Shown: piece after piece, positions 31,701 through 48,903 of the stretch
Position numbering within the stretch: the first letter of the stretch is position 1
Layout of the letters: the number at the start of each line of letters is the position of its first letter
NCBI GenBank assembly: GCA_017400135.1
Contig: JAFPVJ010000008.1
Span: 1 to 63,180 of the forward strand
Direction: 5' to 3'
DNA from: Bacteroidales bacterium
GTDB taxonomy: Bacteria > Bacteroidota > Bacteroidia > Bacteroidales > UBA932
DNA length: 63,180 nucleotides
The notes under the pieces: model-generated
Databases searched by the model: none
The model's input: the letters and a program-made list of their open reading frames with translations, nothing else
Told to the model about the DNA's origin: nothing
Position numbers and translations under genes: made by a program

Positions 31701-31871
31701 CTGGAGTCCTGCGCCAATTATGTCTATTATCTGATCAATGCGCTGAAGGACGACGGCGAGTCGAGCTTCGCCGGAATGATCGAAGAGAATCTGAAGAAGG
31801 TCCTGTCCGGCCAGACGGTCATCGAGGACGATGAGCCGGTGGCGACCCCTCAAGCGGCGCCGGCCAGTTAG
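28752..31871 (+). CDS. DUF2723 polytopic membrane protein (putative protein O-glycosyltransferase)
   Basis: A 1039-residue protein. The N-terminal half has about ten membrane segments and the family signature TASFWDCGEFIASSYKLEVG followed by HPPGNPVFQL, similar to GT-C glycosyltransferases; the C-terminal half is a soluble periplasmic region with helical repeats. DUF2723 proteins are near-universal in Bacteroidetes and have been proposed to glycosylate exported proteins (CAZy GT117 from memory). The substrate cannot be read here. The stop overlaps the stop of the convergent RlmI-like gene by 3 nt. Confidence 0.85.
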   Translation: MDKKKFNLWNKVTAAVVFAISAFTYLSTIEPTASFWDCGEFIASSYKLEVGHPPGNPVFQLFARFFTMFGDKMHAAVLVNAMSALCSALTIFLLYLTIVFLVKRLVPKGENGEWTPAGAVAIFGSAAVGALAYCFSDTFWFSAVEGEVYAMSSLFTALVFWAMTRWYEVADEPYANRWIVLISFLMGLSIGIHLLNLLTIPVLVFLYYYRKRENGQYTLWECVKIMLVSVVILAVMVFFLIPWLPKVAAYVDLFFVNTLGLPYNSGAVFFMLALLALCFWGLFATLKKEKVFWNTALLCLTTIVVGFSLFSIVIIRSSVKTPTNEYQPDNPFTLVRYLSREQYGSTPLLYGQYFDAPYDLESNTYWAPLDGKYKKVQGPVDANYHASGKMLFPRMWNSDPKAIEFYESYMGGKGRRVAGADHKKPTMGANLAFFFDYQMNWMYWRYFMWNFAGRQNDIHGQTPGDMFFGNWESGIRPLDELRLGDQHLAPSTLRNNKGKNHYYLLPLLLGLLGLFFQFARDKRGCWLVFLLFFMTGIAVVLYLNQPPYQVRERDYAYAGSFYAFSIWIGMAVAAIVGWVTKGLKKKESMAVAAVATVACLCVPALMAAENWDDHDRSNRYTAVEMARNYLNSVGPNGILITHGDNDTFPLWYAQEVEEVRPDVRICNTSLLGTDWHIDQMTWACNQSAPLDLSIPHSMYLYGTNEYVYIYDTKNQPMMLKDVMDIFRHPDIKVSLAGGRKADFIISRKIVIPVNKENALKSGIVPEKFADLIQDEITLQIPEGKNYLTKPELFMLDLLSNYQWDRPIHMLNSGGDLDIGLKDYLMYDGFSTHLIPFRNKPGSISPGKVDTDRLYHQMKEVYSWDALKRQDYFVDYQNLITHLGVLAQRSIFLNAANACMIDHQYDRAKEMLDMCQECIPAETYPLESLCLGFSANDYMVIQMVDDYLLLGEREKGLKLAAELADQILTSARFYKQFYPYEKQNLESCANYVYYLINALKDDGESSFAGMIEENLKKVLSGQTVIEDDEPVATPQAAPAS

Positions 31872-32887
31872 CGCCTGAGGCGCACGAAGATGGAGAGCGG
31901 GAGGGCTTTGCCGAAGCGGTCACGCAAGGCGAGCTCCCCGCTTTCCATTTGGTATTCTCCCTTGAGCTTGAAGGCTTCCCGGAGGGTGGTCTCGCCGAGG
32001 AGGGGAGAGTAGCCGTTGGAATAGAGGTTGAGGACGAGGAAGCTGTCTTTGGGCTCGAGGATCTGGGATACGGTCCGGAGCATGTCGAAGAGGCATTCGT
32101 CGAGTTTCCATTTCTCGCCGTCGGGGCCGTGGCCGTAGGCGGGGGGATCGAGGATGATGCCTTGGTAGCGGTTGCCGCGCTTGGCTTCGCGCTTGGCGAA
32201 TTTCATGGCGTCTTCGACGACCCAGCGGATGTCCTGGAGGCCGCTGCGCTCCATGTTGCCGCGGGCCCAGGTGACGACCTGGCGCACGGAGTCGAGGTGG
32301 GTGACGTCGGCGCCGGCGGCCCGGGCGGCCAGGGAGGCGGCGCCGGTGTAGGCGAAGAGGTTCAGCACTTTAGGGCGCTTGACAAGGCGCTCCCCAGAGC
32401 GCCCGGCGGAGACCGGGACGGAGCTGGCGGAGCCGGCGATGTCGGTAGGTCGGGAGCCGCGGGGGATAGTAGGGGGCAGAGCCCCCTCAAATTTGGCGAG
32501 ACCGGAGGTCTCCCGATAGATGAATTCCCAGTTGGGGGCCTGCTCGGGGAATACGCCGACGTGCTTGAAGGCGGTCAGGCCGAGGCGGAGGGTGAAGTCC
32601 AGGCCTTTCTGGGCGCCGGCGTAGCGGATATACCACTGGTCGTCCATCTTGCGGAGGCGCTCCCAGGTGCCGCTGTCTTCCTTGCCTGCCTTGGCGAATC
32701 CGGCGCCGGGCTTGAAGCGGGTGTGGGTGGCTTTGGTCCATTCGGCGCTGCCCATGGAGGGGGTCCAGAGGGCCTTGGGCTCGGGACGGGCGAGGACGTA
32801 GGAGCCGAAGCGCTCAAGCTTTTCGCCGTTTCCGCTGTCGAGGAGTTCGTAGTCTTTCCAGAAGGTGCCGGGGTATTCGATGGTCAT
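31868..32887 (-). CDS. RlmI-like rRNA (cytosine-C5) methyltransferase with in-frame palindromic insertion
   Basis: A 339-residue class I SAM-dependent methyltransferase of the RlmI/RlmK type. SAM motif I is LNLFAYTGAASLAARAAGAD, the acidic partner is THLD and the catalytic motif IV is ILDPPAYGHG. Residues 133-168 (from FEGALPPTIPRGSR to SAGRSGERL) are not part of the family; they are encoded by a palindromic element nearly identical to one inside trmB. The insertion sits in the linker just before the SAM domain, so activity may be kept. The upstream thioesterase gene ends 3 nt before it. Confidence 0.85.
   Translation of the reverse strand: MTIEYPGTFWKDYELLDSGNGEKLERFGSYVLARPEPKALWTPSMGSAEWTKATHTRFKPGAGFAKAGKEDSGTWERLRKMDDQWYIRYAGAQKGLDFTLRLGLTAFKHVGVFPEQAPNWEFIYRETSGLAKFEGALPPTIPRGSRPTDIAGSASSVPVSAGRSGERLVKRPKVLNLFAYTGAASLAARAAGADVTHLDSVRQVVTWARGNMERSGLQDIRWVVEDAMKFAKREAKRGNRYQGIILDPPAYGHGPDGEKWKLDECLFDMLRTVSQILEPKDSFLVLNLYSNGYSPLLGETTLREAFKLKGEYQMESGELALRDRFGKALPLSIFVRLRR
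32384..32491 (-). repeat. In-frame palindromic repeat inside the RlmI-like gene (copy 1)
   Basis: A 108-bp element read in frame as 36 codons. It contains two strong hairpins, AGGGGGC-TCT-GCCCCCT and GGCGCTC-TGGG-GAGCGCC. By hand alignment it differs from the copy at 48571-48672 by about seven substitutions and one 6-base indel, and both copies use the same orientation and reading frame of their host gene. Confidence 0.85.
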
Positions 32888-32890
32888 GGC

Positions 32891-33619
32891 TTAGAAGGTC
32901 ATTTTGCAGATGAAGATCTGGGCGTCGGCGACGCGTCCTTCGACGAAGTGGGCGCCGTCGGCTTCGGCGTGGAAGAGGGAGACGGTCTCGCCGGGCCGGG
33001 CTTCGCGGTTGAAGTTGATTTCGATCTCTTTCAGGGAGTGGTCGAAGGTCAGGGAGTCGGGGAGGCAGTCCATCGCCCAGGCGGTGTAGCGGGTGTTGTT
33101 GACGTGGTGGTTGGAGTCCACGTCGGAGTAGCGCACGGGGTGGTCGGCGACCTTTTCGAGGGCCGTGCCGCGGGGGATGACGATCTTCTGGGCGGGGGTC
33201 TCGATGGCGTGGCCGGGCTGTTGGGGATCCGGGGGAATGATGTCGGTCAAGCCGTCGGGGCGCAGCATCCGGCGGGCGTCTTTTTCCATGATGACCCAGG
33301 AGCTGGTCGCGTCGATGAGGTCGTTGCCTTGCTCGTCGCGGACGCGGTAGTCGCGGAGGAAAAAGACGGAGCTGATGCCCTTGTGCCAGGTCTCGAGGGC
33401 GATTTTCTCGTAGCGGACAGGCATGCGGAGGAAGCGCACGTGCATCCGGGCGAGGACCCAGACGGCGTTGTGGGTGGCGACGGTGACGCTGTCGTCGAAG
33501 TGGAGTTCCTGGGCGCCGATGGTGGCGATCTCCTGGGCGATGTCCATGAAGGAGACGGGGCGGAGGAGGTTGCGGACGTCGGCCATGTAGGTCGTGACGG
33601 AGAGTTTCTGGACGGGCAT
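32891..33619 (-). CDS. Acyl-ACP thioesterase
   Basis: A 242-residue double-hotdog thioesterase of the FatA/FatB-like bacterial family, releasing fatty acids from acyl carrier protein. The first hotdog holds the N-terminal helix FMDIAQEIATIGA, and the second holds the catalytic DxNxHVNN pattern as DVDSNHHVNNTRYTAWAMD (residues about 157-175). The ATG at 33619 follows a TACCTTTG box on the minus strand (complement of 33636-33643). The next gene begins 3 nt after the stop, so the pair is one operon. Confidence 0.88.
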   Translation of the reverse strand: MPVQKLSVTTYMADVRNLLRPVSFMDIAQEIATIGAQELHFDDSVTVATHNAVWVLARMHVRFLRMPVRYEKIALETWHKGISSVFFLRDYRVRDEQGNDLIDATSSWVIMEKDARRMLRPDGLTDIIPPDPQQPGHAIETPAQKIVIPRGTALEKVADHPVRYSDVDSNHHVNNTRYTAWAMDCLPDSLTFDHSLKEIEINFNREARPGETVSLFHAEADGAHFVEGRVADAQIFICKMTF

Positions 33620-33649
33620 GTCGGCTCTGTTTTTTGCAAAGGTAGCAAA

Positions 33650-33681
33650 TTTTGAGAAACGGGAATAAGTTGTTACTTTTG
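33650..33681 (+). promoter_or_regulatory. pgk promoter
   Basis: TTTG at 33650-33653, a 20-base spacer and TACTTTTG at 33674-33681. Transcription should start near 33688, giving a leader of about 26 nt to the ATG at 33714. Confidence 0.7.
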
Positions 33682-33713
33682 TAGGCTTGATTGTAAATAC
33701 AATTTCTGATTAT

Positions 33714-34967
33714 ATGCAACAGTTTATCGATTCCTACGATTTCACCGGCAAGAAAGCCATCGTCCGCGTGGATTTCAACGTCCCGCTCAATGAGAATTTC
33801 GAAATTACCGACGACACCCGAATCCGGGCTGCCATCCCCACGTTGAAGAAGGTCCTGGAGAAGGGCGGCGCCCTCATCATCATGTCCCACCTCGGACGTC
33901 CGAAGGGCGTGGATGCGAAGTTCTCCCTCAAGCATATCGTGGACCACGTGTCCGAGAAGCTGGGCGTGCCCGTCCAGTTCGCTCCGGACTGCCAGAAGGC
34001 GGATGCGCAGGCTGCGGCTCTGAAGCCGGGCGAGGCGCTCCTGCTGGAGAACCTGCGTTTCTATGCGGAGGAGGAAGGCAAGCCCCGCGGTCTGGCGGAG
34101 GATGCTTCCGACGAGGAGAAGAAGGCGGCGAAGGCGGTCGTGAAGGAGAGCCAGAAGGCGTTTACCGCCAAGCTCGCTTCCTACGCGGACTGCTATATCA
34201 ACGACGCGTTCGGCACGGCTCACCGCGCCCACGCTTCGACCGCGCTCATCGCGAAGTATTTCCCGAACGACAAGATGTTCGGCTATCTGATGGAGGGTGA
34301 GATCAAGGCGATCGACAACGTCCTGAAGAACGCTGAGCGCCCGCTGACGGCTATCATCGGCGGTTCGAAGGTGTCTTCCAAGCTGGCGGTCCTGAAGAAC
34401 CTGGTCGGCAAGGTGGACAACCTGATCATCGGCGGCGGCATGGGTTATACTTTCATCAAGGCTACGGGCGGCCAGATCGGCCTGTCTCTGCACGAGGATG
34501 ACCTGATCCCCGATGCGCTGGCGATCCTGGAGGCTGCGAAGGCTCAGGGCGTGAACGTGAGCATCGCGCAGGATGCGGTCTGCACGCAGGAGTTCTCGAA
34601 TGAGGCGAAGACGAAGGTGTTCCCGTCCCGGGAAATTCCCGCCGACTGGGAGGGTGTGGATGCCGGTCCCGAGACCCTGAAGGGTTGGAAGGGCATCCTG
34701 GATGCTTCCAAGACGATCCTGTGGAACGGCCCCGTGGGCGTGTTCGAGATCGATAAGTTCGCGAACGGCACGCTGACCGTGGCGAAAGATCTGGCCGAGG
34801 TGACGGCGAAGGGTGCTTACACCCTGGTCGGCGGCGGCGATTCGGTCGCGGCGGTGACGAAGATGGGTTTCGCGAAGAAGGTGAGTTACGTTTCCACCGG
34901 CGGTGGCGCCATGCTCGAGGCGATCGAGGGCAAGGAGCTGCCGGGTATCGCGGCAATCCGCGAGTAA
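33714..34967 (+). CDS. pgk: Phosphoglycerate kinase
   Basis: A 417-residue glycolytic enzyme (1,3-bisphosphoglycerate plus ADP to 3-phosphoglycerate plus ATP). Signatures include [14 protein letters not shown], the substrate loop [20 protein letters not shown], and the nucleotide site [15 protein letters not shown] with the late GGGDSVAAV. Full length. The ATG at 33714 gives [15 protein letters not shown]; the longer open frame begins at a non-ATG codon inside the predicted leader. lgt follows after 3 nt. Confidence 0.97.
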
Positions 34968-34970
34968 GCC

Positions 34971-35855
34971 ATGTTGTTCGTGCATTGGCATGTGGATCCG
35001 GTGATGTTCCACATCGGGAGCCTGGAGATCCGCTGGTACTCGCTGCTGTTTGTGGCGGGGTTCATCCTGGGCTGGTATATCTTCAAGTGGTTTTTCAAGC
35101 GGGAGGGGATCCCGGAGAAGCTGCTGGATCCGTTGCTGTACACGCTGTTGGCGGCGACGATCGTGGGGGCTCGGCTAGGGCATTGCTGCTTTTATCAGCC
35201 GGATTATTATTTCGGGAGCTGGAAGGGTTTCTGGGAGATTTTCATGCCTTGGAAGGGGGGTCTGGCTAGTCACGGCGGGGCGATCGCGCTGCTGCTGGCG
35301 ATGTGGTGGTTCGCGCATCATTACGGGCGGAAGCATGATTTCGATTATCTGTGGATCATGGATCACCTGTGCATCGCGGTGGCGTTTGCGGGGTGTTTCA
35401 TCCGCTTGGGGAATCTGTTCAATTCGGAGATTTACGGGGATGTGACGTCGCTGCCGTGGGGGTTCTTCTTTGACCGGCGGGGAGAGACGGAGCCGAAGCA
35501 TCCGACGCAGTTGTATGAGGCGTTGAGTTATCTGATCCTGGGGCTGGTGATGGTGTGGATTTATTGGAAGCGGTTGGATAAGGTGCACCGGGGGTTCTTT
35601 TTCGGTTTGTTCCTGGTGGGGTGTTTCGGGATGCGTTTCCTGATTGAGTTCATCAAGGAGCCGCAGGTGGATTTCGAGAGGACTATGGCGCTGAATATGG
35701 GGCAGTTGCTGTCGATCCCGTTCGTTCTGGCGGGGGTGGCGCTGCTGGTCTGGTCGTTCGTTTCTAAGACGCCGGCGCGGGCGGTGCATCCCGCTGAGGC
35801 GCCGAAGCAGAAGGCCGCACTCACGCATTACGCCAAGAGTCTGAGGGACAACTAA
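34971..35855 (+). CDS. lgt: Prolipoprotein diacylglyceryl transferase
   Basis: A 294-residue inner-membrane enzyme that attaches diacylglycerol to the lipobox cysteine. Conserved Lgt elements are visible: an early YSLLFVAGFILGWY helix, the catalytic SHGGAIALLLA segment, and the signature AFAGCFIRLGNLFNSEIYG. About seven membrane helices are present. It is coupled to pgk by a 3-nt gap. It would process the many lipoproteins seen in this window (Wza, GldH, BACON proteins). Confidence 0.95.
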   Translation: MLFVHWHVDPVMFHIGSLEIRWYSLLFVAGFILGWYIFKWFFKREGIPEKLLDPLLYTLLAATIVGARLGHCCFYQPDYYFGSWKGFWEIFMPWKGGLASHGGAIALLLAMWWFAHHYGRKHDFDYLWIMDHLCIAVAFAGCFIRLGNLFNSEIYGDVTSLPWGFFFDRRGETEPKHPTQLYEALSYLILGLVMVWIYWKRLDKVHRGFFFGLFLVGCFGMRFLIEFIKEPQVDFERTMALNMGQLLSIPFVLAGVALLVWSFVSKTPARAVHPAEAPKQKAALTHYAKSLRDN

Positions 35856-35869
35856 TCTAGCTAATCTAA

Positions 35870-36029
35870 GGCAGGAGGGTGCGGGGGCGCGGGGGACTCC
35901 GCTCACTTCGTTCGCTCCGGACCCTCCCACCGTTTCCTGCGCGGTCTTCGACCGCTTGTCTCCGGCGGGCCCCTCCCGCTTCCCGTGAGCGCGGGAGCTC
36001 ACGCCCCCGCACCCCCGCACCCTCCTGCC
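35870..36029. repeat. 160-bp palindromic element with perfect 18-bp terminal inverted repeats
   Basis: The ends GGCAGGAGGGTGCGGGGG (35870-35887) and its exact complement (36012-36029) enclose inner hairpins GCGGTC-TTC-GACCGC (35941-35955) and GTGAGC-GCGGGA-GCTCAC (35985-36002). There is no coding potential. It resembles a small non-autonomous mobile or structural element downstream of lgt. I see only one copy in the window. Confidence 0.75.
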
Positions 36030-36101
36030 CTGAGACAGACGCCGTCGTGCCTTTGTCACCGCTTCCTTCGTCGGGCCTCGCTTTTCCTACTGTGGGTAGT
36101 T

Positions 36102-36222
36102 TCGAAGTTGGTCGACAGCAGAATCGGCCTCTGGGGAAAGAAAGTGCTGTTTACCCCTAGGGTGAAGCCTACCCTAAACAGCAGAAATCGCTTTCTGTGG
36201 CCGTAAGTGCTTTCAACTAACT
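36102..36222 (+). repeat. Diverged solo copy of the RAYT2-type repeat
   Basis: This stretch aligns with the two repeats that flank the second RAYT gene: CGAAGTTGGTCGACAGCA at the start, AAAGTGCTGTTTA and CCTACCCTAAACAGCA in the middle, and a degenerate end. An internal 9-bp stem TGCTGTTTA/TAAACAGCA is intact. A further partial echo (CTTTCTGTGGCCTAAAG) occurs near 36357-36374. The remaining bases from 36223 to 36622 contain no gene; only the upstream region of the efflux operon is there, without a convincing promoter. Confidence 0.6.
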
Positions 36223-36622
36223 ATGGTTTTCCTTGAGATTCACGTTCACCAGGGTATTTTCTGGTTGTCATAGAGATTTCTCTCGTCCGCCAGATCGTTT
36301 TCTGGTTGTTGGGGGATTATACTTGTGGGGGGATTCCAATAGTTGTAAGTTTGTAAGCTTTCTGTGGCCTAAAGAGCTTTTCGGTCATCGGGAGGGCTGG
36401 GAGGATTGTTTTTTATGTGTCTTCGAGGGCGGGTGGTATGGTGTAATTTTTGCAGCATTTATTGGCTCGTGCGTGACGTGCGCGTTTTAACGCGGTAGGA
36501 GTCGGGGAGTTGATACGCGATAGGAGACGTGGGGAGGGAGGGGACGAGGTGTTGCTTTGTGTCAGGTTGTGCAGGATGTTTGGATGGTTGATTTTTAGTA
36601 GTGTGTTGATTATAAGCTTTTT

Positions 36623-38299
36623 ATGAGACGATATATTTCGATTGTGGCGGCGATGCTGGTGCTGATGCCGCAAGTGGCGGGAGCGCAGTATAAGCAGAAA
36701 GAGAAGGTGGATCCGGGCGGGTCTAACAAGGTGGTGGACCGGACTGACAGGACGGTCGATCTGACGGGCCGGGCTGCTCTGGAAAACCAGGGAAGTCAGA
36801 CCGGGACCCGAAGTGAGGGGAGCCAGGGATCGCAAACCAGTTCTCCGAGTGATGGGAGCCAGGGAGGACAGACCGGGATCTTGAATTCCGGGAGTCTGGT
36901 GGGAAATATCGGTACCTCTGGGGAGGAGACGCTGGTGCTGACGCTGGAGGATGCGCTGAAGATTGCTTTGAGCGAGAATGTGTCGGTGAAGGTGGCGGAT
37001 AAGGAGGTGGAGCGGGCACAATATGCGCGGAAGGGGACGTATGCGTCGCTGTTCCCGCAGATCGACGGGTCGGCTTCGTATCAGAGGACGATCAAGAAGC
37101 AGGTGATGTACATGGATTTCGACATGGGCTCGCTGAGCGGCATGGCGGAGGGTGGCGAGGAGCAGACGGGTGCGGCGCTGGAAATGCTCAATAATCCCGT
37201 CACGCGGGCTTCCGGACAAGGTTCCGGCAACGGCCGGACGGCGGGAGGCGGTATCGAGGTGGGCCGTTGGAATACATTCTCGACGGGTGTGTCGGCTTCG
37301 CTGCCGCTGGTGAATGCCCAGCTTTGGAAGAGTCTCGAGGTGGCGGGTCAGGATGTGGAGCTGGCGGTGGAGAAGGCGCGGTCGTCGCGCCTGGCGATGG
37401 TGACGCAGGTCAAACAGGCCTTCTACGGCGTTCTGCTGGCGAAGGAGGCCCTCAAGGTTTATCAGGAAGTTTACGATAACGCGCTCGAGAGTTTCACGCA
37501 GACCGAGCGGCGTTTCAATGTGCAGAAGGCGTCCGAACTGGATTACAACCGGGCGAAAGCCACGGTGCAGAATGCCATTCCGCAGGTCTATGAATCGGCG
37601 AACCAGGTGGCGCTGGCGCTATGGCAGTTGAAGGCGATCCTGGGGATGGACCTGGACACGGAGATCGACGTGGCCGGGGAACTGCCGGATTGGGCGGGGG
37701 AGATGTTCTATGACATTCATTCCCATGACGACGTTTCCCTGGACGACAATACGACGATGCGCCAGTTGGCCATCCAGGCCGAGGAGCTGGCGAATGCGGT
37801 CAAGCTGCAGCAGTATGCCTCGCTGCCGAGCCTCGCGCTGAGTTTCAATTACAGCATCAACGCGATGACCAACGACTTCAATTTCAGCGAGTACCGCTGG
37901 TCGCCGTATTCCTTCGTGGGGCTGAGCCTGCAGGTGCCGATCTTCGCGGGCGGCCGCCGGTATCACGCCGTCAAGCAGGCGCAGGTGCAGCGGGACGAGC
38001 TGCAGATGCAGTTGCGCGACACGGAGCGACAGCTGAAAATCGCCGTGGGCCAGTACCTGAGCCAGATGGAGACGAAGATGAAGAGCTACCAGGCGGCGCA
38101 GGTCGCGGAGGAGACGGCGCGCAAGGCGTACGACATCGCGGCCAAGTCCTACCAGGTGGGCCGGAGCACGATCACGGACCTGAACAGCGCGCAGCTGGCC
38201 TTGACCCAGGCGCAGCTCGCCGTGTCGCAGGCGATCTACGAGTTCGTGCTGGCGAAGGCGAATCTGGAGGAAACGCTGGGCTATGATTTCACGGAATAA
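36623..38299 (+). CDS. TolC-family outer-membrane efflux protein
   Basis: A 558-residue outer-membrane channel of the TolC/OEP type with signal peptide (MRRYISIVAAMLVLMPQVAG, then AQ) and two OEP repeats of long helices (ALKIALSENVSVKVADKEVE; KAYDIAAKSYQVGRSTITDL). It forms the exit duct of the RND pump whose genes follow. A segment of about 60 residues after the signal (SQTGTRSEGSQGSQTSS and similar) is low-complexity and repetitive and is not usual in the family. Start ATG 36623. Confidence 0.9.
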   Translation: MRRYISIVAAMLVLMPQVAGAQYKQKEKVDPGGSNKVVDRTDRTVDLTGRAALENQGSQTGTRSEGSQGSQTSSPSDGSQGGQTGILNSGSLVGNIGTSGEETLVLTLEDALKIALSENVSVKVADKEVERAQYARKGTYASLFPQIDGSASYQRTIKKQVMYMDFDMGSLSGMAEGGEEQTGAALEMLNNPVTRASGQGSGNGRTAGGGIEVGRWNTFSTGVSASLPLVNAQLWKSLEVAGQDVELAVEKARSSRLAMVTQVKQAFYGVLLAKEALKVYQEVYDNALESFTQTERRFNVQKASELDYNRAKATVQNAIPQVYESANQVALALWQLKAILGMDLDTEIDVAGELPDWAGEMFYDIHSHDDVSLDDNTTMRQLAIQAEELANAVKLQQYASLPSLALSFNYSINAMTNDFNFSEYRWSPYSFVGLSLQVPIFAGGRRYHAVKQAQVQRDELQMQLRDTERQLKIAVGQYLSQMETKMKSYQAAQVAEETARKAYDIAAKSYQVGRSTITDLNSAQLALTQAQLAVSQAIYEFVLAKANLEETLGYDFTE

Positions 38300-38312
38300 T
38301 ACAACACAAGAT

Positions 38313-39368
38313 ATGAAACGATTCTTTCAGATTGCCCTGATCCTTGCTGCGGCCGTGACGGTCGCCGCGTGTGCGGGAAAGAACGGAGGAAAGGCCACAC
38401 AGGCCACGCAAAACGCAAAGGCCGCCCCGGCCGGAATGCCGGGAAGCGACGGTCCCGTCAAGGTGGAGATCGCCGTGGCTCAGTACCGCGACGTGCCCCA
38501 GGACGAGGTCTATTCGTCCACGGTCCAGGCATACGCCATCAACAACATCGTCCCCCAGAGCGGCGGGCGCATCAAGAAGATCAACGTCGAAGTGGGCGAT
38601 TTCGTCCGCAAGGGCCAGATCCTGGCCGAAATGGATGCGCTGAACCTCGACCAGGCCCGCCTGAAGCTGGTCAATGACTCGACGGAGCTCAGCCGCCTGC
38701 GCACCCTCCTTCAGGAAGGCGGCGTGTCGCAGTCCGATTTCGAGGCCGTGGAGCTGGCGTACAAGGTCAGCAAGTCCTCCTACCAGAACCTGCTGGAGAA
38801 CACGATCCTGCGTTCGCCGATCAGCGGCGTCGTGACGGCGCGCGGCTATGACAGGGGCGACATGTATGCGATGGGTTCCCCGCTGTACGTGGTCCAACAG
38901 ATCACGCCCGTCAAGCTCCTCGTGGGCATCAGCGAGTCGGAATACACCCGTCTGCACCGGGGCGACGCCGTGACCCTGACGGTCGACGCGCTGCCCGGCC
39001 GGGAATTCACCGGCAAGGTGGGACGCATCTATCCGACGATCGACGCGGCTTCGCACACCTTCACCGCCGAGGTCCTGGTGCCCAACGGCGACTGCGCCTT
39101 GCGCCCGGGAATGTACGCCCGCGTGAAGGTGACCTTCGAGGTGCGGCGCAGCATCGTGGTGCCGGACGTGGCCGTGCAGAAGCAGCAGGGCAGCGGCGTG
39201 CGCGTGGTCTATGTCGTCGGTCCCGAGGAGACGGTCGACATCGTGCCGGTCACGCCGGGCCGCCACATCGGCAGCGAATATGAGATCCTCGAGGGCCTCT
39301 CCGAAGGGGAGCGGGTCGTGGTGAAAGGCCATTCCGCGCTGCGGAACGGCTCCAAGGTCGCAATGTAG
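38313..39368 (+). CDS. RND efflux periplasmic adaptor (HlyD/MFP family)
   Basis: A 351-residue membrane fusion protein with a lipoprotein signal (MKRFFQIALILAAAVTVAAC), a biotinyl-lipoyl-like domain (INVEVGDFVRKGQILAEMDA), a short hairpin, and beta-barrel and membrane-proximal domains (VLVPNGDCALRPGMYARVKV). It bridges the RND pump and TolC. ATG 38313 lies 13 nt after the tolC stop; the earlier in-frame ATG at 38283 lies inside tolC. Confidence 0.92.
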   Translation: MKRFFQIALILAAAVTVAACAGKNGGKATQATQNAKAAPAGMPGSDGPVKVEIAVAQYRDVPQDEVYSSTVQAYAINNIVPQSGGRIKKINVEVGDFVRKGQILAEMDALNLDQARLKLVNDSTELSRLRTLLQEGGVSQSDFEAVELAYKVSKSSYQNLLENTILRSPISGVVTARGYDRGDMYAMGSPLYVVQQITPVKLLVGISESEYTRLHRGDAVTLTVDALPGREFTGKVGRIYPTIDAASHTFTAEVLVPNGDCALRPGMYARVKVTFEVRRSIVVPDVAVQKQQGSGVRVVYVVGPEETVDIVPVTPGRHIGSEYEILEGLSEGERVVVKGHSALRNGSKVAM

Positions 39369-39380
39369 GGAGGAGACGGT

Positions 39381-42300: not shown

Positions 42301-42494
42301 TGGGCATGGCGCCGATGGCGCTGGGCCGGGGCGAGGGTTCGGAGATGTGGAACGGCCTGGGCACGACGGTATGCTGGGGCCTGTCGGTCTCGACTTTGAT
42401 TACGCTGGTGCTGATCCCGACGGTGTATTGCGCGTTCACGCTGCGTCAGGAGAAGCGCCGGAACAAGAAACTTGCTAAAAAGAGTGAACGATGA
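39381..42494 (+). CDS. RND multidrug efflux permease (HAE1/AcrB-like)
   Basis: A 1037-residue inner-membrane pump with the usual two sets of six membrane helices and two large periplasmic loops. The proton-relay motif of helix 4 is GMVVDDAIVVLENV; the N-terminal VEHPVTTALVFIAFMIFGIF and late GIVVKNGIVLIDYT are typical of HAE1 proteins. The operon adaptor-permease-PG0541-like protein is tight (12-nt gap, then a 4-nt overlap). The substrate is not predictable. Confidence 0.95.
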   Translation: MSIYRSAVEHPVTTALVFIAFMIFGIFSLSKTSIAQFPEFDSNVIMVMSSYQGASAADIEQNLTKLLENSLNGVANLKKLTSRSKENVSILTLEFEYGIDIEEATNNVRDKLDAVNSQLPDGVTVPVIFKFSADDMPIMILSATAEESLPGLDKILDDKVATPLARVNGVGTVGINGAPTREIQVYCDPSKLQAYGLSVSTIASIIAAENRNLPSGNIDIGSETYNLRVQKEFNDPSELLDIVVGSAGGRTVYLRDIATVRDGKEEKEQESYTNGTRSAGIVIQKQSGANTVNVIRGVKKTLERIKPTLPSDIKIITVVDSSTNIINTINTLKETILITFLVVMLVVFLFLGRWRATFIIVLSIPIALLASLVYLFATGNTLNIISMSALSIAIGMVVDDAIVVLENVSTHLERGEKPKEAAVHATGEVGISVVASTLTMLCVFLPLTMIRGRAGLMFRQLGWIVSIIMIVSTTAALTLVPMLCSRMLKAGPKTGKLHNAIFGPVNRALDAVARGYARLIGWATSHRTAVILGATVIFAATLALCVPGLKTEFFPYSDDGRLRATIELPVGTAQSVTADVAERLYDRICAAIPEIQRFNYTFGQADSENTFASMQNNGTHVLTMNINVGSMEDRKRSTAELADVIRGILADFPEIRKANVSEGGMGMGGMSRVEVEVYGYDFEATDRVAADLREKMFADPCYTQVLVSRDQYTPEYQIDFDRTKLALNGLNSSTAGTAFSAAMSGAIASFYREDGEEYYIRVRYAPEFRTSVEDLENIIVYNAMGKPVRMKELGTIVETKVPPTIERKDRERLITVTGIVARGKALSEAVKATQKIIDASDIPSELSVLIAGDYEDQQEMFSELIVLILLIVIMVYMVMASQFESFMAPFVIMFSVPFGLVGVLLGLKAHGMALGMMGMIGIIILLGIVVKNGIVLIDYTILCRERGMGVVESSVTAARSRLRPILMTTLTTVLGMAPMALGRGEGSEMWNGLGTTVCWGLSVSTLITLVLIPTVYCAFTLRQEKRRNKKLAKKSER

Positions 42495-42784
42495 AAGCGG
42501 TATTCATAGCCTTCAACCAGGCTTATAACGACGAGATCGTCGATTTGCTGGAGGCCCGCGGGCAGCGGGGTTTCACGCGCTGGAATGACATCCTGGGGCG
42601 GGGGAGCGTGGACGGGGAGCCGCATTACGGCAACCACGCGTGGCCGGTGCAGAACATGGCGGTGCTGACGATGGTGGAGGATGCGCTGGTCCCCGAGCTG
42701 CTTTCTGACCTGGAGGCGGCGGACAAGGCTTCCCCGGATCTGGGATTACGGGCCTTCGTTTGGGATATTGTCTCGCATTACTAA
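42491..42784 (+). CDS. PG0541-type transporter-associated protein (PII-like)
   Basis: A 97-residue protein resembling the PG0541 transporter-associated family: MKAVFIAFNQAYNDEIVDLL and RGFTRWNDILGRGSVDGEPH, then a small ferredoxin-like half ending FVWDIVSHY. The fold is related to PII signalling proteins and the gene is almost always the last in Bacteroidetes RND operons. It overlaps the permease by 4 nt. A regulatory or sensing role for the pump is inferred. Confidence 0.75.
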   Translation: MKAVFIAFNQAYNDEIVDLLEARGQRGFTRWNDILGRGSVDGEPHYGNHAWPVQNMAVLTMVEDALVPELLSDLEAADKASPDLGLRAFVWDIVSHY

Positions 42785-42798
42785 AATCAGTATATTTG
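42767..42798 (+). promoter_or_regulatory. trxA promoter
   Basis: TATATTTG at 42791-42798 with ATTG (one mismatch to TTTG) 20 bases upstream at 42767-42770. The start of transcription is expected near 42804, 16 nt before the trxA ATG. Confidence 0.55.
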
Positions 42799-42819
42799 TA
42801 ATTCATTAAAACCAATATT

Positions 42820-43134
42820 ATGGCAAAAGTTATTACCAATACCAATTTCGAGGAGCTGGTCGCTGGCGACAAGCCCGTCATGATCGACTTCTGGGCCACC
42901 TGGTGTGGACCCTGCCGTATCCTTTCCCCCACCGTGGATGAGATTGCGGACGAGTATGCCGACAAGATCACCGTCGCGAAGTGCAACGTGGATGACGCGG
43001 AGGAGATCGCGATGCAGTTCCGCATCATGAGTATCCCCACCCTGATCTTCCTGAAGAACGGCGAGGTCGTGGACAAGCGGGTCGGCGTCGTCTCCAAGGA
43101 TGAGATCGTATCCATCATCAATTCCATCGCTTAA
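42820..43134 (+). CDS. trxA: Thioredoxin
   Basis: A 104-residue thioredoxin with the active site FWATWCGPCRIL, the buried Asp in PVMIDFWA and the cis-Pro loop MSIPTLIFLKNG. Cytoplasmic disulfide reductant. It has its own promoter and is followed after 3 nt by a beta-barrel protein, beginning a long co-directional gene run to smpB. Confidence 0.96.
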   Translation: MAKVITNTNFEELVAGDKPVMIDFWATWCGPCRILSPTVDEIADEYADKITVAKCNVDDAEEIAMQFRIMSIPTLIFLKNGEVVDKRVGVVSKDEIVSIINSIA

Positions 43135-43137
43135 AAC

Positions 43138-43737
43138 ATGAAAAGACTTTTGGTCATCGCGGCCGCGTTGCTTTTCAGCGCCACCGCATTCGCCGAGGGC
43201 TTCGGCCTCATCGGCGGTTACACATCTTCGAGCTTGAAGATGAAGGAAATGAGCTTCAAGTCCAGCGCGGGTGTCCACGCAGGCGTCGCTTACAACATCC
43301 CGCTGATAGCCGGATTCAACCTCCAGCCGGAGCTGGTATACAACGTCAAGGGCTTCAACTGGGAGGGCGCCGACAGCGACGTCTTCAAGGATCAGGCGGG
43401 CAAGTTCGGCTATGTCGAGCTGCCGGTCCAGATCCAATGGGGTCCCGATCTCCTGCTGCTGCGTCCGTACGTGCTGGCGGAGCCGTTCGTCGGCTATGCC
43501 GTGACGGGAAAGAAGGTCATCAACAATGGGGAAACCAAGGTGGACTGGGCTAACATGAAGTCCCGCGTAGAGTATGGCGTCGGCGTCGGTGCCGGCATCG
43601 AGATCTACAACCGCGTGCAGGTGTCCTTCAAGTACTATTGGAACTTCGAGGATGCTTCGCAGTGGAGCGACATCACCGACAAGGTGAAGGCGAAGGGCTT
43701 CAGCGGCCTTACCTTCACGGCGGGAATCTTCTTCTAG
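43138..43737 (+). CDS. Outer-membrane beta-barrel protein (porin-like)
   Basis: A 199-residue protein with signal peptide (MKRLLVIAAALLFSATAFA) and alternating strands typical of the small OMP_b-brl family in Bacteroidetes: GFGLIGGYTSSSLKM, GVAYNIPLIAGFNLQPELVY, and a terminal aromatic FTAGIFF required for Bam assembly. No enzymatic motif is visible. It is probably co-transcribed with trxA. Confidence 0.8.
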   Translation: MKRLLVIAAALLFSATAFAEGFGLIGGYTSSSLKMKEMSFKSSAGVHAGVAYNIPLIAGFNLQPELVYNVKGFNWEGADSDVFKDQAGKFGYVELPVQIQWGPDLLLLRPYVLAEPFVGYAVTGKKVINNGETKVDWANMKSRVEYGVGVGAGIEIYNRVQVSFKYYWNFEDASQWSDITDKVKAKGFSGLTFTAGIFF

Positions 43738-43740
43738 CCG

Positions 43741-44271
43741 ATGGAGGGAAAGGTAGCCGTCTTTTTCTGCTCGGCGAGTTTCGACATCGACCCCAAGTAC
43801 AACCAGGCTGCCCGGGATTTTGTCCGTGCAGCTTGTTTGCGTGGATATGCGATCTCTTCGGGCGGCACGACGAAGGGCACGATGAAGGTCGTGGTCGATA
43901 CCGCGAAGGCGTGCGGCGCCCGGACCAAGGGCGTGCTGCCGCGCTTCATGACGGAGGTCGTGCATCCGGATCTGGACGAACTGCTGTGGACGGATACCAT
44001 GGCCGAACGCAAGGAGCGGCTGCGGGACGACGCGACCGTCGTGGTGGCGCTCCCGGGCGGAATCGGCACCTTGGACGAATACTTCGAAACACTGACCCTG
44101 GCCAAGCTGGGTGTATTCCGGGGCAAGGTCATCGCGGTCAACGTGGACGGTTTTTATGACAAATTGAAAGAGTTGCTCGACTTCTATGTGGAGACGGGGA
44201 TGCTGGATGCGCAGACGCGCTCCATCGCCTATTTCGTCGACACGGTCGAGGAATTCGAGGCACTGCTTTAA
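43741..44271 (+). CDS. LOG-family protein (cytokinin riboside 5'-monophosphate phosphoribohydrolase-like)
   Basis: A 176-residue Rossmann-fold protein of the TIGR00730/LOG family that hydrolyses nucleoside 5'-monophosphates to base and ribose 5-phosphate. The signature PGGIGTLDE is present (VVALPGGIGTLDEYFETLTL), with SSGGTTKGTMKVV upstream. The physiological substrate in bacteria is uncertain. It starts 3 nt after the barrel gene and abuts the polyprenyl synthase. Confidence 0.88.
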   Translation: MEGKVAVFFCSASFDIDPKYNQAARDFVRAACLRGYAISSGGTTKGTMKVVVDTAKACGARTKGVLPRFMTEVVHPDLDELLWTDTMAERKERLRDDATVVVALPGGIGTLDEYFETLTLAKLGVFRGKVIAVNVDGFYDKLKELLDFYVETGMLDAQTRSIAYFVDTVEEFEALL

Positions 44272-45255
44272 ATGGATTTCAGAAAGGATCACGCCCGTTT
44301 CCTGCTGGACGACTGGACAGAGGTCAGCCGCCAGATGCGCACCGTGTTGCAGAGCGACATCCGATTGCTCAACGAGGCCAATGAGCGTATCCTTTCCCAC
44401 GGCGGGAAGATGATACGGCCGGCGATGTCCCTGCTGTTCTCCCGCGCCTGCGGGGGGACGGTGTCGGAAGGCGGCCGGAAGGTGGCTGCGGCGGCGGAAC
44501 TGCTGCACAATGCGACCCTCCTGCACGACGACGTGGCCGACTGCAGCGAGGAGCGCCGGGGCATTCCGACGACTTCTTCCATCCTGGGGGCCAACGCGTC
44601 GGTCCTGCTGGGGGATTACTGGCTGGTCAAGGCGATGGAGCTGATCCTGGACTGCGGTCCGTGCAGCGACCGGGTCACGCGCATCTTCTCCAAGACCCTG
44701 TCCGACCTGGCTTCCGGGGAGATGTTGCAGTTGCAGAAAGCGGTGCAGGGGGATACGTCGCGGGAGGATTACTTCCGCATCATCTATTCCAAGACGGCGT
44801 CGCTTTTCGAGGCGTCCTGCGTGTCTGCGGCCCTTTGCGCCGGGGCATCCGAGACGCTGGTGGAGGCGGCCCGGGAGTACGGGGTGCGGGCGGGGATCGC
44901 CTTCCAGATCAAGGATGACATCCTCGATTATACGGCCACCGATGCGCTGGGAAAGCCCGTGGGGCTGGACCTGCACGAGAAGAAAATCACCCTGCCGCTG
45001 CTCGGAGCCTTGCAGCAGGTCGGCGGGGATGAGGACCGGGAGGTCCGCCGGATGGTCTGCGAAATAGACGTCCATCCGGAGCATTATGAACGGATCCGCT
45101 CGTTCGTCTTCGAAAAGGAAGGCATCGCGTATGCGGAATCCGTCCTGGAGGAATATATCGCCAAGGCCAAGGAGGCGCTCGGAGCTTTCCCTGCGGGGGA
45201 GGCGGTGGAGCTGCTGGCGTCCCTGGCGGATTTCATAGGGGAAAGACAGAAATGA
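44272..45255 (+). CDS. Polyprenyl diphosphate synthase
   Basis: A 327-residue all-helical prenyltransferase making long-chain polyprenyl diphosphate, likely for menaquinone. The first Asp-rich motif is LLHDDVADCSEERRG and the second IKDDILDYTATDA, with the isopentenyl-binding HGGKMIRPAMSLL near the N-terminus. Length and motifs suggest an octaprenyl/solanesyl-type synthase rather than a short-chain one; chain length cannot be settled. Its stop overlaps holB by 4 nt. Confidence 0.9.
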   Translation: MDFRKDHARFLLDDWTEVSRQMRTVLQSDIRLLNEANERILSHGGKMIRPAMSLLFSRACGGTVSEGGRKVAAAAELLHNATLLHDDVADCSEERRGIPTTSSILGANASVLLGDYWLVKAMELILDCGPCSDRVTRIFSKTLSDLASGEMLQLQKAVQGDTSREDYFRIIYSKTASLFEASCVSAALCAGASETLVEAAREYGVRAGIAFQIKDDILDYTATDALGKPVGLDLHEKKITLPLLGALQQVGGDEDREVRRMVCEIDVHPEHYERIRSFVFEKEGIAYAESVLEEYIAKAKEALGAFPAGEAVELLASLADFIGERQK

Positions 45256-46328
45256 GGTTTGCCGAGATACAGGGGAATGAGGGCGTGAAGCGCGCCCTGG
45301 CCGGGATGGTGGATGCCGGCAAAGTCCCGCATGCGATTCTCTTTCACGAGGATGACGGCTGCGGGGCGGTGCCGATGTGCATCGCGTTCCTGCAGTACCT
45401 CTGGTGCCCGAACCGGGGGCAGGGCGGAGAGCAGCTGAGCCTGCTGGACGAGCCGGCGGAGGATGCGCTGCCCGATTCCTGCGGCGTGTGCCCGGCCTGC
45501 AACAAGATCTCCAAGCTGATCCACCCCGACGTGCATTTCGTCTATCCGGTGACGGGCGGGTCGCTGATTCCGTCGAGCGCCAAGCCCACTTCGCTCTCGT
45601 ATGTCAAGCAGTGGCGGGAGCTGGTGCTGGCGAATCCTTTCTTCACGGAAAGGGACCTGAACGAGGCGCTGGGAATCGAGGGCAAGTCGTCCCTGATTTC
45701 GGTCGCCGACGCGCGGGAGATCCTGGGCCGCCTGGCGTTCCAGTCGCTCGAGGGCGGCTGGCGGGCGGTGGTGGTCTACCTGCCGGAGAAGATGAATGCG
45801 GACGCGGCCAACCGCCTGCTGAAGTCGATCGAGGAGCCGCCGGAGCGCACGCTGTTCCTGCTGGTCACGCATGCGCCCGAGAAGGTGCTGCCGACGATCG
45901 CGTCCCGCTGCCAGCACATCCGCCTGGTGCCGGTGCGGCGCCCGGATGCGGCGCCCGGCGAGGATGAGGCGGAGGAACTGGAACTGATGGGTTCCCTGCT
46001 GGAGTCTGTCACGGGCAAGGATCTGTCCGCGGCCCTGGAGGCGGGGGAGGCGATCGCCGCCCTGCCTTCGCGGGAGCGGATCAAGGATTTCCTGAAATAT
46101 GCGTCCCGGACGCTGAGGAACGTGTTCCTCGTGCAGCAGGGACTGACTGAGATCGCGGGGGCCTCCGAGGAGGAAATGGCGCTCGCACGGCGTTTCGCTC
46201 CCCAGCTGAAACGCTCTTTTGCCCGGACGATCCTGCCGCAGCTGGACCGCGGCGCGATGCTGGTCGACCGGAATGTCAACGCCAAGATCGTCCTGTGCGA
46301 TCTGGTCAATAAAATGTTCGTGTTATGA
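45252..46328 (+). CDS. holB: DNA polymerase III delta' subunit
   Basis: A 358-residue clamp-loader subunit. The zinc module CGVCPACNKISKLIHPD is clear, as are DAREILGRLAFQSLEGGWRA and EEPPERTLFLLVTHAPEKVL, followed by SRCQHI. The P-loop position reads DDGCGAVPMC and lacks GKT, as expected for delta', which does not hydrolyse ATP. It overlaps genes at both ends by 4 nt (ATGA). Confidence 0.92.
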   Translation: MRFAEIQGNEGVKRALAGMVDAGKVPHAILFHEDDGCGAVPMCIAFLQYLWCPNRGQGGEQLSLLDEPAEDALPDSCGVCPACNKISKLIHPDVHFVYPVTGGSLIPSSAKPTSLSYVKQWRELVLANPFFTERDLNEALGIEGKSSLISVADAREILGRLAFQSLEGGWRAVVVYLPEKMNADAANRLLKSIEEPPERTLFLLVTHAPEKVLPTIASRCQHIRLVPVRRPDAAPGEDEAEELELMGSLLESVTGKDLSAALEAGEAIAALPSRERIKDFLKYASRTLRNVFLVQQGLTEIAGASEEEMALARRFAPQLKRSFARTILPQLDRGAMLVDRNVNAKIVLCDLVNKMFVL

Positions 46329-47500
46329 GCAACGAAAAAGATTCGATACAGTACGACTGCTTCCGCGGCTGCACGGTGACGACGGATGTCGCGACCGGCG
46401 AGCAGGAATGCACGTACCGGCGCGGCTGCTGCAAGCTCCGGGATTACGATTATCTCAAGGGGGTGCCGCAGGCGAGCTACAAGGACCTGTTCGAGGTGCG
46501 TTTCAAGAATACGCGCAAGGGATTCTATACCAATGCCTCCGGCCAGAGCGTCAAGCAGGGCGACCTGGTCGTCGTGGAGGCGGCGACCGGCCATGACCTG
46601 GGCATCGTGACGCTCGAAGGGGCCATGGTGGCGCGCCAGATGAAGTGCAAGGGCATCGATCCTGCGACGACGGAGTTCAAGAAGATCTACCGCAAGGCGC
46701 GGTCGTTCGACATCAACAAGTGGCAGGAGGCGATCGCCCGGGAGCACGAGACGATGATCAAGGCGCGGCAGATCGCGACGGAGATGGGCCTCGAGATGAA
46801 GATCGGGGACGTGGAGTTCCAGGGCGACGGGACGAAGGCGATTTTCTACTACATCGCCGACGGGCGCGTGGATTTCCGGCAGCTGATCAAGGTGTTCGCC
46901 GAGGAATTCCGCATCCGCATCGAGATGAAGCAGATCGGCGCACGCCAGGAGGCGGGCCTGATCGGCGGTCTGGGCGTGTGCGGACGGGAGCTTTGCTGCG
47001 CGAACTATATCACTAATTTCCAGTCGATTACGACGGGTGCGGCGCGGGTGCAAGATTTGTCTTTGAACCCGCAGAAGCTGGCGGGGCAGTGCGGTAAGCT
47101 GAAGTGCTGCCTGAACTATGAGGTGGCGACTTACCAGGATGCGCAGTCGCGGATTCCGCGGGTCAGCGAGCCGCTGGAGTTCGAGGACGGCCTGGCCTAT
47201 CTGGTCAAGACGGATGTGCTGCGGGGGATGATGTTCTTCTCCTATGAGAAGGGGTCGATGACAGACCTGTATGCGCTGACGGCCGCCGAAGTGCAGGAGG
47301 TGATCAAGATGAACCGCAACGGCCTGAAGCCGGAGTCGCTGCGCAGCGAACCGGAGCTTTCGGCGCCGGATTTCATCGATGCCGTGGGCGACGACAGCAT
47401 CACGCGTTTCGATAAGCCGCGCGGAAAGAGCCGGGGCGGTCGCAACCGCAAGAAGGGCAAGGGCGGCAAGGGCCAGAAGGGGAATGGTGATGCGTCGTAG
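46325..47500 (+). CDS. ricT: PSP1-domain protein RicT
   Basis: A 391-residue PSP1 family protein; the conserved core is LGVCGRELCCANYITNFQSI and the Cys cluster GQCGKLKCCLNYE. In Bacillus RicT belongs to an Fe-S containing complex affecting RNase Y and phosphorelay; in Bacteroidetes it is usually followed by gldH, as here. An extra N-terminal Cys-rich segment (CTYRRGCCKLRDYD) could bind metal. The C-terminus is a basic Gly/Lys-rich tail that overlaps gldH. Confidence 0.88.
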   Translation: MSNEKDSIQYDCFRGCTVTTDVATGEQECTYRRGCCKLRDYDYLKGVPQASYKDLFEVRFKNTRKGFYTNASGQSVKQGDLVVVEAATGHDLGIVTLEGAMVARQMKCKGIDPATTEFKKIYRKARSFDINKWQEAIAREHETMIKARQIATEMGLEMKIGDVEFQGDGTKAIFYYIADGRVDFRQLIKVFAEEFRIRIEMKQIGARQEAGLIGGLGVCGRELCCANYITNFQSITTGAARVQDLSLNPQKLAGQCGKLKCCLNYEVATYQDAQSRIPRVSEPLEFEDGLAYLVKTDVLRGMMFFSYEKGSMTDLYALTAAEVQEVIKMNRNGLKPESLRSEPELSAPDFIDAVGDDSITRFDKPRGKSRGGRNRKKGKGGKGQKGNGDAS

Positions 47501-47891
47501 TCTTTTGTTTGGGATGTTGGGCGTGCTGCTCCTCTGTTGGGTGGCTGGCTGCAAGCGTCCGGTGTCGACGGAGCAGTTTGTCTTCGACGACGGGAGCGGG
47601 CAGTTCGATTTCACGGTGGACATGAGCGATTCGCTCTGCACGTACGACCTTTCCTTTTATACGCGGCTGGAGTCGCGGCTTTCGCCGCCGGGCTTTCCGA
47701 TCCGGGTGTATATGACTTCGCCGTCGGGGGCCGTGTACAGCGAGACGCTGTTTTATGACGCGTCGGTTTCGCTGGTGGTGCCTTACCGGGCGGGGCTGGA
47801 GCCGGTGGAATACGGGCTCTGGCAGCTGTCGGTGCGGGCGCGGGCCGAGGGATTGAAGGGAATGGGGCTGATCTGCGGCCGGACGTATTGA
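47484..47891 (+). CDS. gldH: GldH-family lipoprotein
   Basis: A 135-residue lipoprotein (lipobox WVAGC after SLLFGMLGVLLLC) matching the GldH family known from gliding and type IX secretion in Bacteroidetes: FVFDDGSGQFDFTVDMSDSL, PGFPIRVYMTSPSG and a final strand GLWQLSVRARA. Its order after ricT is conserved in the phylum. Candidate starts are ATG 47484, GTG 47487 and ATG 47490, all inside ricT. Without other gld genes here, gliding cannot be inferred. Confidence 0.78.
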   Translation: MVMRRSLLFGMLGVLLLCWVAGCKRPVSTEQFVFDDGSGQFDFTVDMSDSLCTYDLSFYTRLESRLSPPGFPIRVYMTSPSGAVYSETLFYDASVSLVVPYRAGLEPVEYGLWQLSVRARAEGLKGMGLICGRTY

Positions 47892-47910
47892 TTCGTTTAT
47901 TTGGCTCGTC

Positions 47911-48903
47911 ATGGGACACGACAAGCTCAGGAAGTTTGCGGAGAATGAGACGTTCTCCTGCCTGCTGCAGCCTTCGGCTTCGGAGCTGCTGGCGGACGGG
48001 TTTTTCAACCTGCGCGACCATGCGGTGAAGGGGCAGTGGAATGCGACGATGTTTGATGCGCCGCGGCCGATTGTCTTGGAGCTGGGTTGCGGGAAGGGGG
48101 AGTATACGATCGATCTTTCGCGGCGGGAGCCTGGGTGCAATTACATCGGCGTGGACATCAAGGGGGCGCGGCTGTGGAAGGGGGCGAAGTATGCGCACGA
48201 GCACCAGTTGGGGAATGTGGCGTTTCTGCGGACGCGGATCGAGTTCATCGGGGCGTTTTTTGCGCCTTCTGAGGTTTCGCAGATTTGGCTGACGTTTTCG
48301 GATCCGCAGTTGAAGAGTGAGAACAGCCGGCTTACTTCGCCGGTGTTTCTGGAGCGGTACCGTCGGTTTTTGCAGCCGGGGGGTGTGGTGCATCTGAAGA
48401 CGGACAGCCGGTTTTTGCACGAGTATTCGCTGGCGGTGGCGCGGCGGAACGGGCTGCGGGTGCTGGCGCAGACGACGGATTTGTATAGCACGCCGAGAGA
48501 GTCTTTGTTTGATGCCGGGACAGCCAGTGAAGTTTGGGGAGCAGAAAAGAACCCTTCGGGGAATGCATTCTTTGAGGGGGCTCTGCCCCCTACTTTCCCC
48601 CGCGGCTCCCGGGCTACCGACATCGCCTGCGGCTCCGTCCCGCCCTCCGCCGGGCGCTCTGGGGAGCGCCTTCGCCCGCAAGGCGGGCTCAACCCCCTTT
48701 CGACTGTGGATGTAGATGCGTTGTACGAAGTGCAGACGTTTTATGAGCGGATGTTCCGGGCGCAAGGGTACAAGATTACGTACCTGGCGTTTACGCTGGA
48801 CCACGAGGGGCCGTTCGAGCATCCGTCTGAGGAGGAGTTTGACGCGGCTTACTGGCGGAGCGTGGAGGGGCCGCGGCATTTCGCTACGCCGCCGGATGCT
48901 TGA
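47911..48903 (+). CDS. trmB: tRNA (guanine-N7-)-methyltransferase with in-frame palindromic insertion
   Basis: A 330-residue TrmB, longer than the usual 220-250. SAM motif: IVLELGCGKGEYTIDLSRRE; catalytic region: QIWLTFSDPQLKSENSRLTS; C-terminal recognition: TFYERMFRAQGYKITYLAF. Residues 221-254 (FEGALPPTFPRGSR to SAGRSGERL) are encoded by a palindromic element almost identical to the one in the RlmI-like gene. The element lies between the catalytic domain and the last strand pair. The neighbouring residues up to about 270 are also low in complexity. Confidence 0.88.
   Translation: MGHDKLRKFAENETFSCLLQPSASELLADGFFNLRDHAVKGQWNATMFDAPRPIVLELGCGKGEYTIDLSRREPGCNYIGVDIKGARLWKGAKYAHEHQLGNVAFLRTRIEFIGAFFAPSEVSQIWLTFSDPQLKSENSRLTSPVFLERYRRFLQPGGVVHLKTDSRFLHEYSLAVARRNGLRVLAQTTDLYSTPRESLFDAGTASEVWGAEKNPSGNAFFEGALPPTFPRGSRATDIACGSVPPSAGRSGERLRPQGGLNPLSTVDVDALYEVQTFYERMFRAQGYKITYLAFTLDHEGPFEHPSEEEFDAAYWRSVEGPRHFATPPDA
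48571..48672 (+). repeat. In-frame palindromic repeat inside trmB (copy 2)
   Basis: A 102-bp element (34 codons) with the same paired hairpins as the copy at 32384-32491. It is followed at once by another small hairpin (GCCCGC-AA-GCGGGC type, 48673-48690). The frame starts exactly on a codon boundary with TTT (Phe), as in copy 1. Confidence 0.85.

Follow-up and report, generated by a model that had tools for sequence, protein, structure and literature searches.

In-frame palindromic DNA elements in methyltransferase and other genes of an uncultured Bacteroidales genus

Two related elements within methyltransferase genes

Two genes in a 63,180-nucleotide window of a Bacteroidales genome each carry a copy of the same short palindromic element. 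The window is the whole of contig C4 (JAFPVJ010000008.1) of a 2.31-Mb draft genome that is 88.6% complete. One host gene, at 47911..48903 on the plus strand, is trmB, encoding tRNA guanosine-46 N7-methyltransferase (330 codons; NCBIfam NF001080, 233 bits against a cut-off of 132). The other, at 31868..32887 on the minus strand, encodes an RlmI-like S-adenosylmethionine (SAM) methyltransferase of 339 codons (Pfam PF10672, 30.9 bits; cut-off 27). Both are open across their inserts. An earlier reading of the window from its letters and open reading frames (ORFs), hereafter the sequence-only reading, had called both hosts RNA methyltransferases. Both do look like SAM methyltransferases by Pfam, and trmB exceeds its NCBIfam cut-off, whereas the name RlmI comes from NCBIfam matches below theirs.

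The trmB copy spans 48571..48672 on the plus strand (102 bp, residues 221-254; covariance-model E 2.5e-14) and the RlmI copy 32384..32491 on the minus strand (108 bp, residues 133-168; E 3.4e-15), both in sense orientation to the gene. BLAST and alignment recover them where the sequence-only reading had placed them, and its count of about seven substitutions and an in-frame 6-base indel becomes exactly seven substitutions and a single gap of 6 nt in a 108-column alignment (88% identity; BLAST E ~6e-28 within the window). Both copies start with TTT on a codon boundary and share codon phase 0, as had been described. The insertion points differ in place between TrmB and the RlmI-like protein, in agreement with the claim that the sites are non-homologous.

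Each copy contains two hairpins, identical in the two genes. The 5' hairpin, AGGGGGCTCTGCCCCCT, has arms AGGGGGC and GCCCCCT around TCT and is preceded by TTTG; it lies at 48575..48591 (plus strand) in trmB and 32471..32487 (minus strand) in the RlmI-like gene. The 3' hairpin, GGCGCTCTGGGGAGCGCC, has arms GGCGCTC and GAGCGCC around TGGG and lies at 48653..48670 (plus strand) and 32386..32403 (minus strand). In a 48-copy alignment of the element (A1), the 5' hairpin corresponds to pairs 7-26 to 13-20 and the 3' hairpin to pairs 123-140 to 129-134.

AlphaFold models built with orthologs place both inserts in low-confidence regions. The predicted local distance difference test score (pLDDT) falls below 50 at residues 210-225, 231-259 and 327-330 of TrmB (mean 79), and at residues 139-168 of the RlmI-like protein, as well as 106-110, 199-218 and 252-260 (mean 77). 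Because the score is below 50 there in both models, the inserts at TrmB 221-254 and RlmI 133-168 are predicted to be loops between ordered parts.

The element family and its distribution

The window pair belongs to a larger family. BLAST and the covariance model find the same five copies in the genome, two sense and three antisense, all in open genes. The three outside the window lie antisense in tsaB, in a GalM-like gene (named by eye; it has no NCBIfam hit) and in a gene with galactarate dehydratase as its top NCBIfam match, each of them open, so the shared orientation that the sequence-only reading stressed describes the window pair and is not a rule. Across 200 genomes of the genus, BLAST detects the element in 43, this genome included (four candidates scored per genome), and a covariance model of 48 copies in 71, among them 28 of 80 high-quality genomes (19 candidates per genome, E 1e-3).

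In an order-wide draw of 295 genomes (13 candidates scored per genome, covariance model, E 1e-4) only the genome itself matched, with 0 of 294 others among the matches listed; those 294 included one genome of the same genus and two from other genera of the family. The element thus looks genus-bound, with neighbouring genera barely sampled. When named genomes were scanned for the exact core, 41 stretches came back, every one titled uncultured Bacteroidales or Bacteroidia and, where a source was stated, derived from rumen, omasum or horse faeces. The genus may be Candidatus Cryptobacteroides. Several copies lie at contig ends (for example at loci L059, L066, L067, L079 and L087), which means that copy numbers in draft genomes are probably underestimated.

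Pairing at the DNA level

The sequence-only reading had described two strong hairpins per copy. Both are present, but single-copy folds beat shuffles by only a small margin (z -0.2 to -2.5), and we therefore built the structural case on covariation in the 48 copies. Their alignment supports 21 pairs, which form the 5' hairpin, a two-part central stem and the 3' hairpin. Both sides change in 14 of the 21 pairs, with 120 both-side against 8 one-side cells, and differences between aligned copies fall largely within the inner hairpin and the stems, where they come in pairs. Most copies have a tag of TTTG, TCTG or TTGTC before the first hairpin. Among 1006 stem pairs there are nine G-U (0.9%), nine A-C and 14 other mismatches; in 26 tRNAs from the same loci, G-U makes up 49 of 557 pairs (8.8%). 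Since G-U is as rare as A-C, and a strand-specific RNA would allow G-U, the substitution pattern indicates that stem pairing is maintained at the DNA level.

Genes that host the element

We classed 109 merged copies from 105 loci in 40 genomes; the loci are the best BLAST or covariance-model matches rather than a random sample. By whole-ORF gene calling, which is approximate (L101 is called intergenic, and by eye its frame resembles MiaA), 40 copies lie in genes, 49 between genes, 14 across gene ends and 6 at contig edges. A codon test on 240-nt flanks was dropped as noisy: it called 10 of 109 copies in-frame and 59 'neither coding', trmB among them. The 40 in-gene copies support the idea that the element tolerates insertion into coding sequence, with the correction that many copies lie between genes. 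Orientation, tested for 37 in-gene copies, was antisense in 27 and sense in 10.

Hits were obtained for 26 of the 30 proteins in the main host scan, some of them under the curated NCBIfam cut-off. The best hits include TsaB, TruA (two, one of which, L247, is a short match at E 3e-5), TrmB (two), RsmA, RsmG, RsmH and MtaB (two), along with FtsK (two), HemW (two), DNA polymerase I, PurL, AroD-AroA, YgiQ, RdgB and Fmt. In TsaB, DNA polymerase I, PurL, YgiQ and the two MtaB proteins a single NCBIfam match spans the insert, so the host reading frame is kept.

RNA-modification enzymes are over-represented among the hosts. They account for 13 of 40 host ORFs, a count that includes orthologous pairs, two unscanned orthologs (L054, L107) and RlmI below its NCBIfam cut-offs, against none named in 40 random neighbouring genes (p 8e-5). 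Counting gene families gives 8 of 28 for hosts and 0 of 40 for neighbours (p 4e-4). If only scanned proteins whose hit has a name are kept, the counts are 9 of 26 and 0 of 21 (p 0.003); hosts were scanned at E 1e-5 and neighbours at 1e-15, which left 21 of the 40 neighbours with a hit and 19 without. This bias could be explained by tolerance as well as by targeting.

Filled, empty and refilled sites

Orthologs without the insert are common. Of the 200 genus genomes, 190 have a TrmB match and 196 an RlmI match, and among the matches listed most alignments end at, or begin past, the insertion point; an ancient segment common to all relatives, the alternative named in the sequence-only reading, is not what the alignments contain. 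Alignment of 28 TrmB proteins shows a hypervariable linker: the insert copy itself was seen in one genome only, and one of the 27 other proteins (G139) has a related element in antisense. The RlmI insert is shared, in the alignments shown, by G164 alone. In other species the insertion-point linkers hold other repeat families, and in HemW, and probably also in TruA, the element lies at different places in two species each.

Three further sites record filling and refilling. In the linker of an unnamed SAM methyltransferase, G084 and G173 have a full element, G167 keeps its last third, G171 is empty, and G057 and G064 hold another repeat family. In AroD, G171 and G173 carry an identical element (0 of 104 differences), although identity between their AroA parts is 82.4%. 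The two nearest to G171, G084 and G167, are empty at this site, and G120 (94.3% identical to G173) and G045 carry a different palindrome at the same place. In PurL, the copies of the element in G170 and G171 are identical (0 of 100 differences), G199 has none, and G045, G098, G120 and G167 hold relatives of the other palindrome of AroD. From these alignments we read the AroD copy as having come recently, in separate species, to a site that was already permissive; it may have got there by transposition or through recombination of a short tract. Divergence in the flanks of the AroD and PurL sites is slightly lower over the first 30 bases than over those that follow.

Near-identical orthologous copies might instead be old vertical insertions, frozen by strong nucleotide constraint. 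Among 88 copies, all six pairs with an identity of 0.96-1.00 are orthologous and every other pair is at or below 0.95; near the RlmI copies (2 of 107 differences) and the SAM methyltransferase copies (4 of 104), the close flanks are as diverged as those farther out. For RlmI, vertical descent may account for the shared copy. Orthologous copies in RsmA (14 of 108 differences in the DNA alignment and 35 of 108 in the codon alignment), MtaB (14 of 108) and FtsK (25 of 99) have diverged, and therefore constraint alone does not freeze the sequence. The identical AroD copy in non-sister species, with relatives empty or filled by another family, also speaks against frozen old insertions, which we judge an unlikely account of the near-identical copies.

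One diverged pair has a further peculiarity. The FtsK genes of G171 and G045 (L056, L084) have an apparently common old insert; in one species many of its codons for arginine and glycine have turned acidic, as if the insert had been remodelled there as protein.

A probable mobile element persisting at permissive linkers

We consider it probable that the family is a non-autonomous mobile DNA element that lies in and between genes and persists as in-frame loops at permissive linkers. The element would be ~90-135 bp long. Its strands could form a 5' and a 3' hairpin and, between them, a long-range central stem enclosing a variable inner hairpin. It would spread within and between species of the one uncultured genus, presumably as single-stranded DNA moved by an enzyme acting in trans. 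In-gene copies would persist where a stop-free in-frame loop falls on a permissive linker, and selection would purge harmful insertions. The host protein would gain ~35 residues and presumably still be translated and work normally. The copy family, the open frames and the empty and differently filled sites support the sequence-only reading's view of a mobile element of the Rickettsia type. Mobility is further supported by elements that sit inserted in another repeat family. The TTTG/TCTG/TTGTC tag would fit the cleavage tag of a single-strand transposase.

Several observations weigh against this proposal. About half of the examined copies are intergenic by the approximate gene calling. Stop content gives no sign that the element is adapted to coding, because in-gene copies are hardly poorer in stops than intergenic ones (3.19 open frames of six per copy inside genes, 2.98 in intergenic copies and 2.53 in shuffles). 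Some orthologous copies are alike enough that strong constraint may be at work. We found no mobilising gene for the element, and genes like those for REP-associated tyrosine transposases (RAYTs; REP, repetitive extragenic palindrome) do not track it. The search for exact ends and target duplications gave no firm result at TrmB and RlmI, where the linkers are too variable, or at HemW, TruA, AroD and PurL; at the GalM-like site, too, it gave no firm ends or duplication, as the pattern recovered one of two sequences.

Alternatively, the element could be part of a REP- or REPIN-like system and be moved by RAYT (HUH tyrosine) transposases that the genus itself encodes. The short tag before the first hairpin in most copies and the DNA-level pairing would suit such a system, and RAYT-like ORFs exist in 157 of 200 genus genomes, none above the cut-off, including the genome studied here (NF047646, E 3e-9, below the cut-off). 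Their occurrence shows no link with the element, however: 59 of the 71 genomes with the element have a RAYT-like gene, as do 98 of the remaining 129 (p 0.28), and several element-bearing genomes, such as G105 and G198, show none. No element copy lies in the 16 kb around the RAYT-like gene of this genome, the one such gene examined, and GTAG/CGTC tags are not conserved in the 48-copy alignment. We regard this origin as doubtful. The RAYT-like ORF itself (L113 892-1818, minus strand, on contig C3) encodes 308 aa with the motif NHVH, and upstream of it is an inverted repeat, GCGCCCAATGG/CCATTGGGCGC, that is unlike the element.

A functional RNA structure, for instance one removed by splicing or bypassed by the ribosome, is very improbable. 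Strong hairpins in the transcript and host genes that remain open could be taken to favour it. G-U pairs are ten times rarer than in tRNAs and equal in number to A-C, copies occur in both orientations, host frames require no removal, and nine loci gave no Rfam match at E up to 1. The same absence of Rfam matches in those nine loci speaks against a known structured RNA or a group I or II intron.

Assembly artefacts of draft metagenomes, which several copies at contig ends might suggest and which the sequence-only reading had named as a possible undoing, are scarcely credible, since the RlmI copy stands at the same site in the independent draft G164 and the two window copies, which differ by 12%, lie in the interior of a 63-kb contig, the TrmB copy being known from one genome only.

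Other repeat families in the genus

Three further repeat families share these genomes. The second family, 66 bp long, has four matches in the genome studied here (G000), lying in open frames on contigs C9 (L115 4451-4516, 4661-4726 and 5248-5272), C27 (L218) and C14 (L220). A half copy of this family stands directly next to the main element in the GalM-like gene, and in G164 the main element is located inside a copy. The third family (L294 1975-2052, L193 2592-2660, L293, L307, L308, L309, L316) occurs in AroD, PurL and RlmI of several genus members and is strongly palindromic (fold z -4.4 against shuffles). The fourth (L275 1759-1830, L272, L273, L274, L278, L158, L161, L162, L171 and others) turns up often at the genus's SAM methyltransferase and TrmB loci. 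The second and fourth families fold weakly against shuffles (z -1.8 and -1.9).

With four families counted, two of them clearly palindromic, we tentatively raise a broader possibility. A guild of unrelated small DNA repeats might repeatedly reach, in different species, the same permissive codons of the same proteins, with RNA-modification enzymes favoured and paired stem changes setting the site specificity of each lineage. Such repeats would behave like inteins that home without splicing.

Relation to known elements and significance

In behaviour and description the element resembles Rickettsia palindromic elements (RPEs). According to the parts of the RPE literature cited here, those are 100-150 bp palindromic repeats of several families that lie in pre-existing genes with the frame kept (PMC3767692, PMC10969869). 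In R. japonica, 18 genes contain RPE-4, -6 or -7; orthologous sites are occupied by different families in different species, as AroD and PurL are here; and one of the 18 hosts is tRNA guanine-N7-methyltransferase, the enzyme called TrmB here (PMC3767692, in part). The encoded parts are described there as solvent-exposed, and the insert regions here are modelled as low-confidence loops. The element differs from RPEs in its phylum (the exact-core scan gave Bacteroidales or Bacteroidia stretches, none from Rickettsia or Wolbachia), in its GC-rich modular fold and in the half or so of examined copies that are intergenic.

Two other groups invite comparison. GTAG/CGTC-tagged REPs are likewise hairpin DNA repeats, some of them wholly intragenic, tRNA pseudouridine synthase genes being among their hosts, and CGTC repeats are reported in Bacteroidetes (PMC3733652, in part), for which RAYT subclasses are also described (PMC6006769, in part). 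REPs are 20-40 bp long and mostly intergenic, however, their tags are not conserved in our element, and the portion of PMC3733652 drawn on here names no intragenic REPs of Bacteroidetes. Bacterial miniature inverted-repeat transposable elements (ERIC, RUP and others) are similarly short, non-autonomous and occasionally fused in frame with genes (PMC10969869, in part); the terminal repeats of insertion sequences and target-site duplication could not be shown for the element here.

Among the matches listed in the open-access literature there was no report of protein-coding palindromes in Bacteroidales, in line with the sequence-only reading, which knew of none. Such palindromes have been discussed mainly for Rickettsia and Wolbachia, where genome shrinkage might excuse them. 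A well-populated counterpart of several families in bacteria of the herbivore gut would mean that this lifestyle is not bound to intracellular decay. Filled, empty and refilled sites in many species make movement and the supply of new protein segments testable questions. Because trmB is a host both in Rickettsia and here, the two groups hint at common rules of where proteins tolerate invasion.

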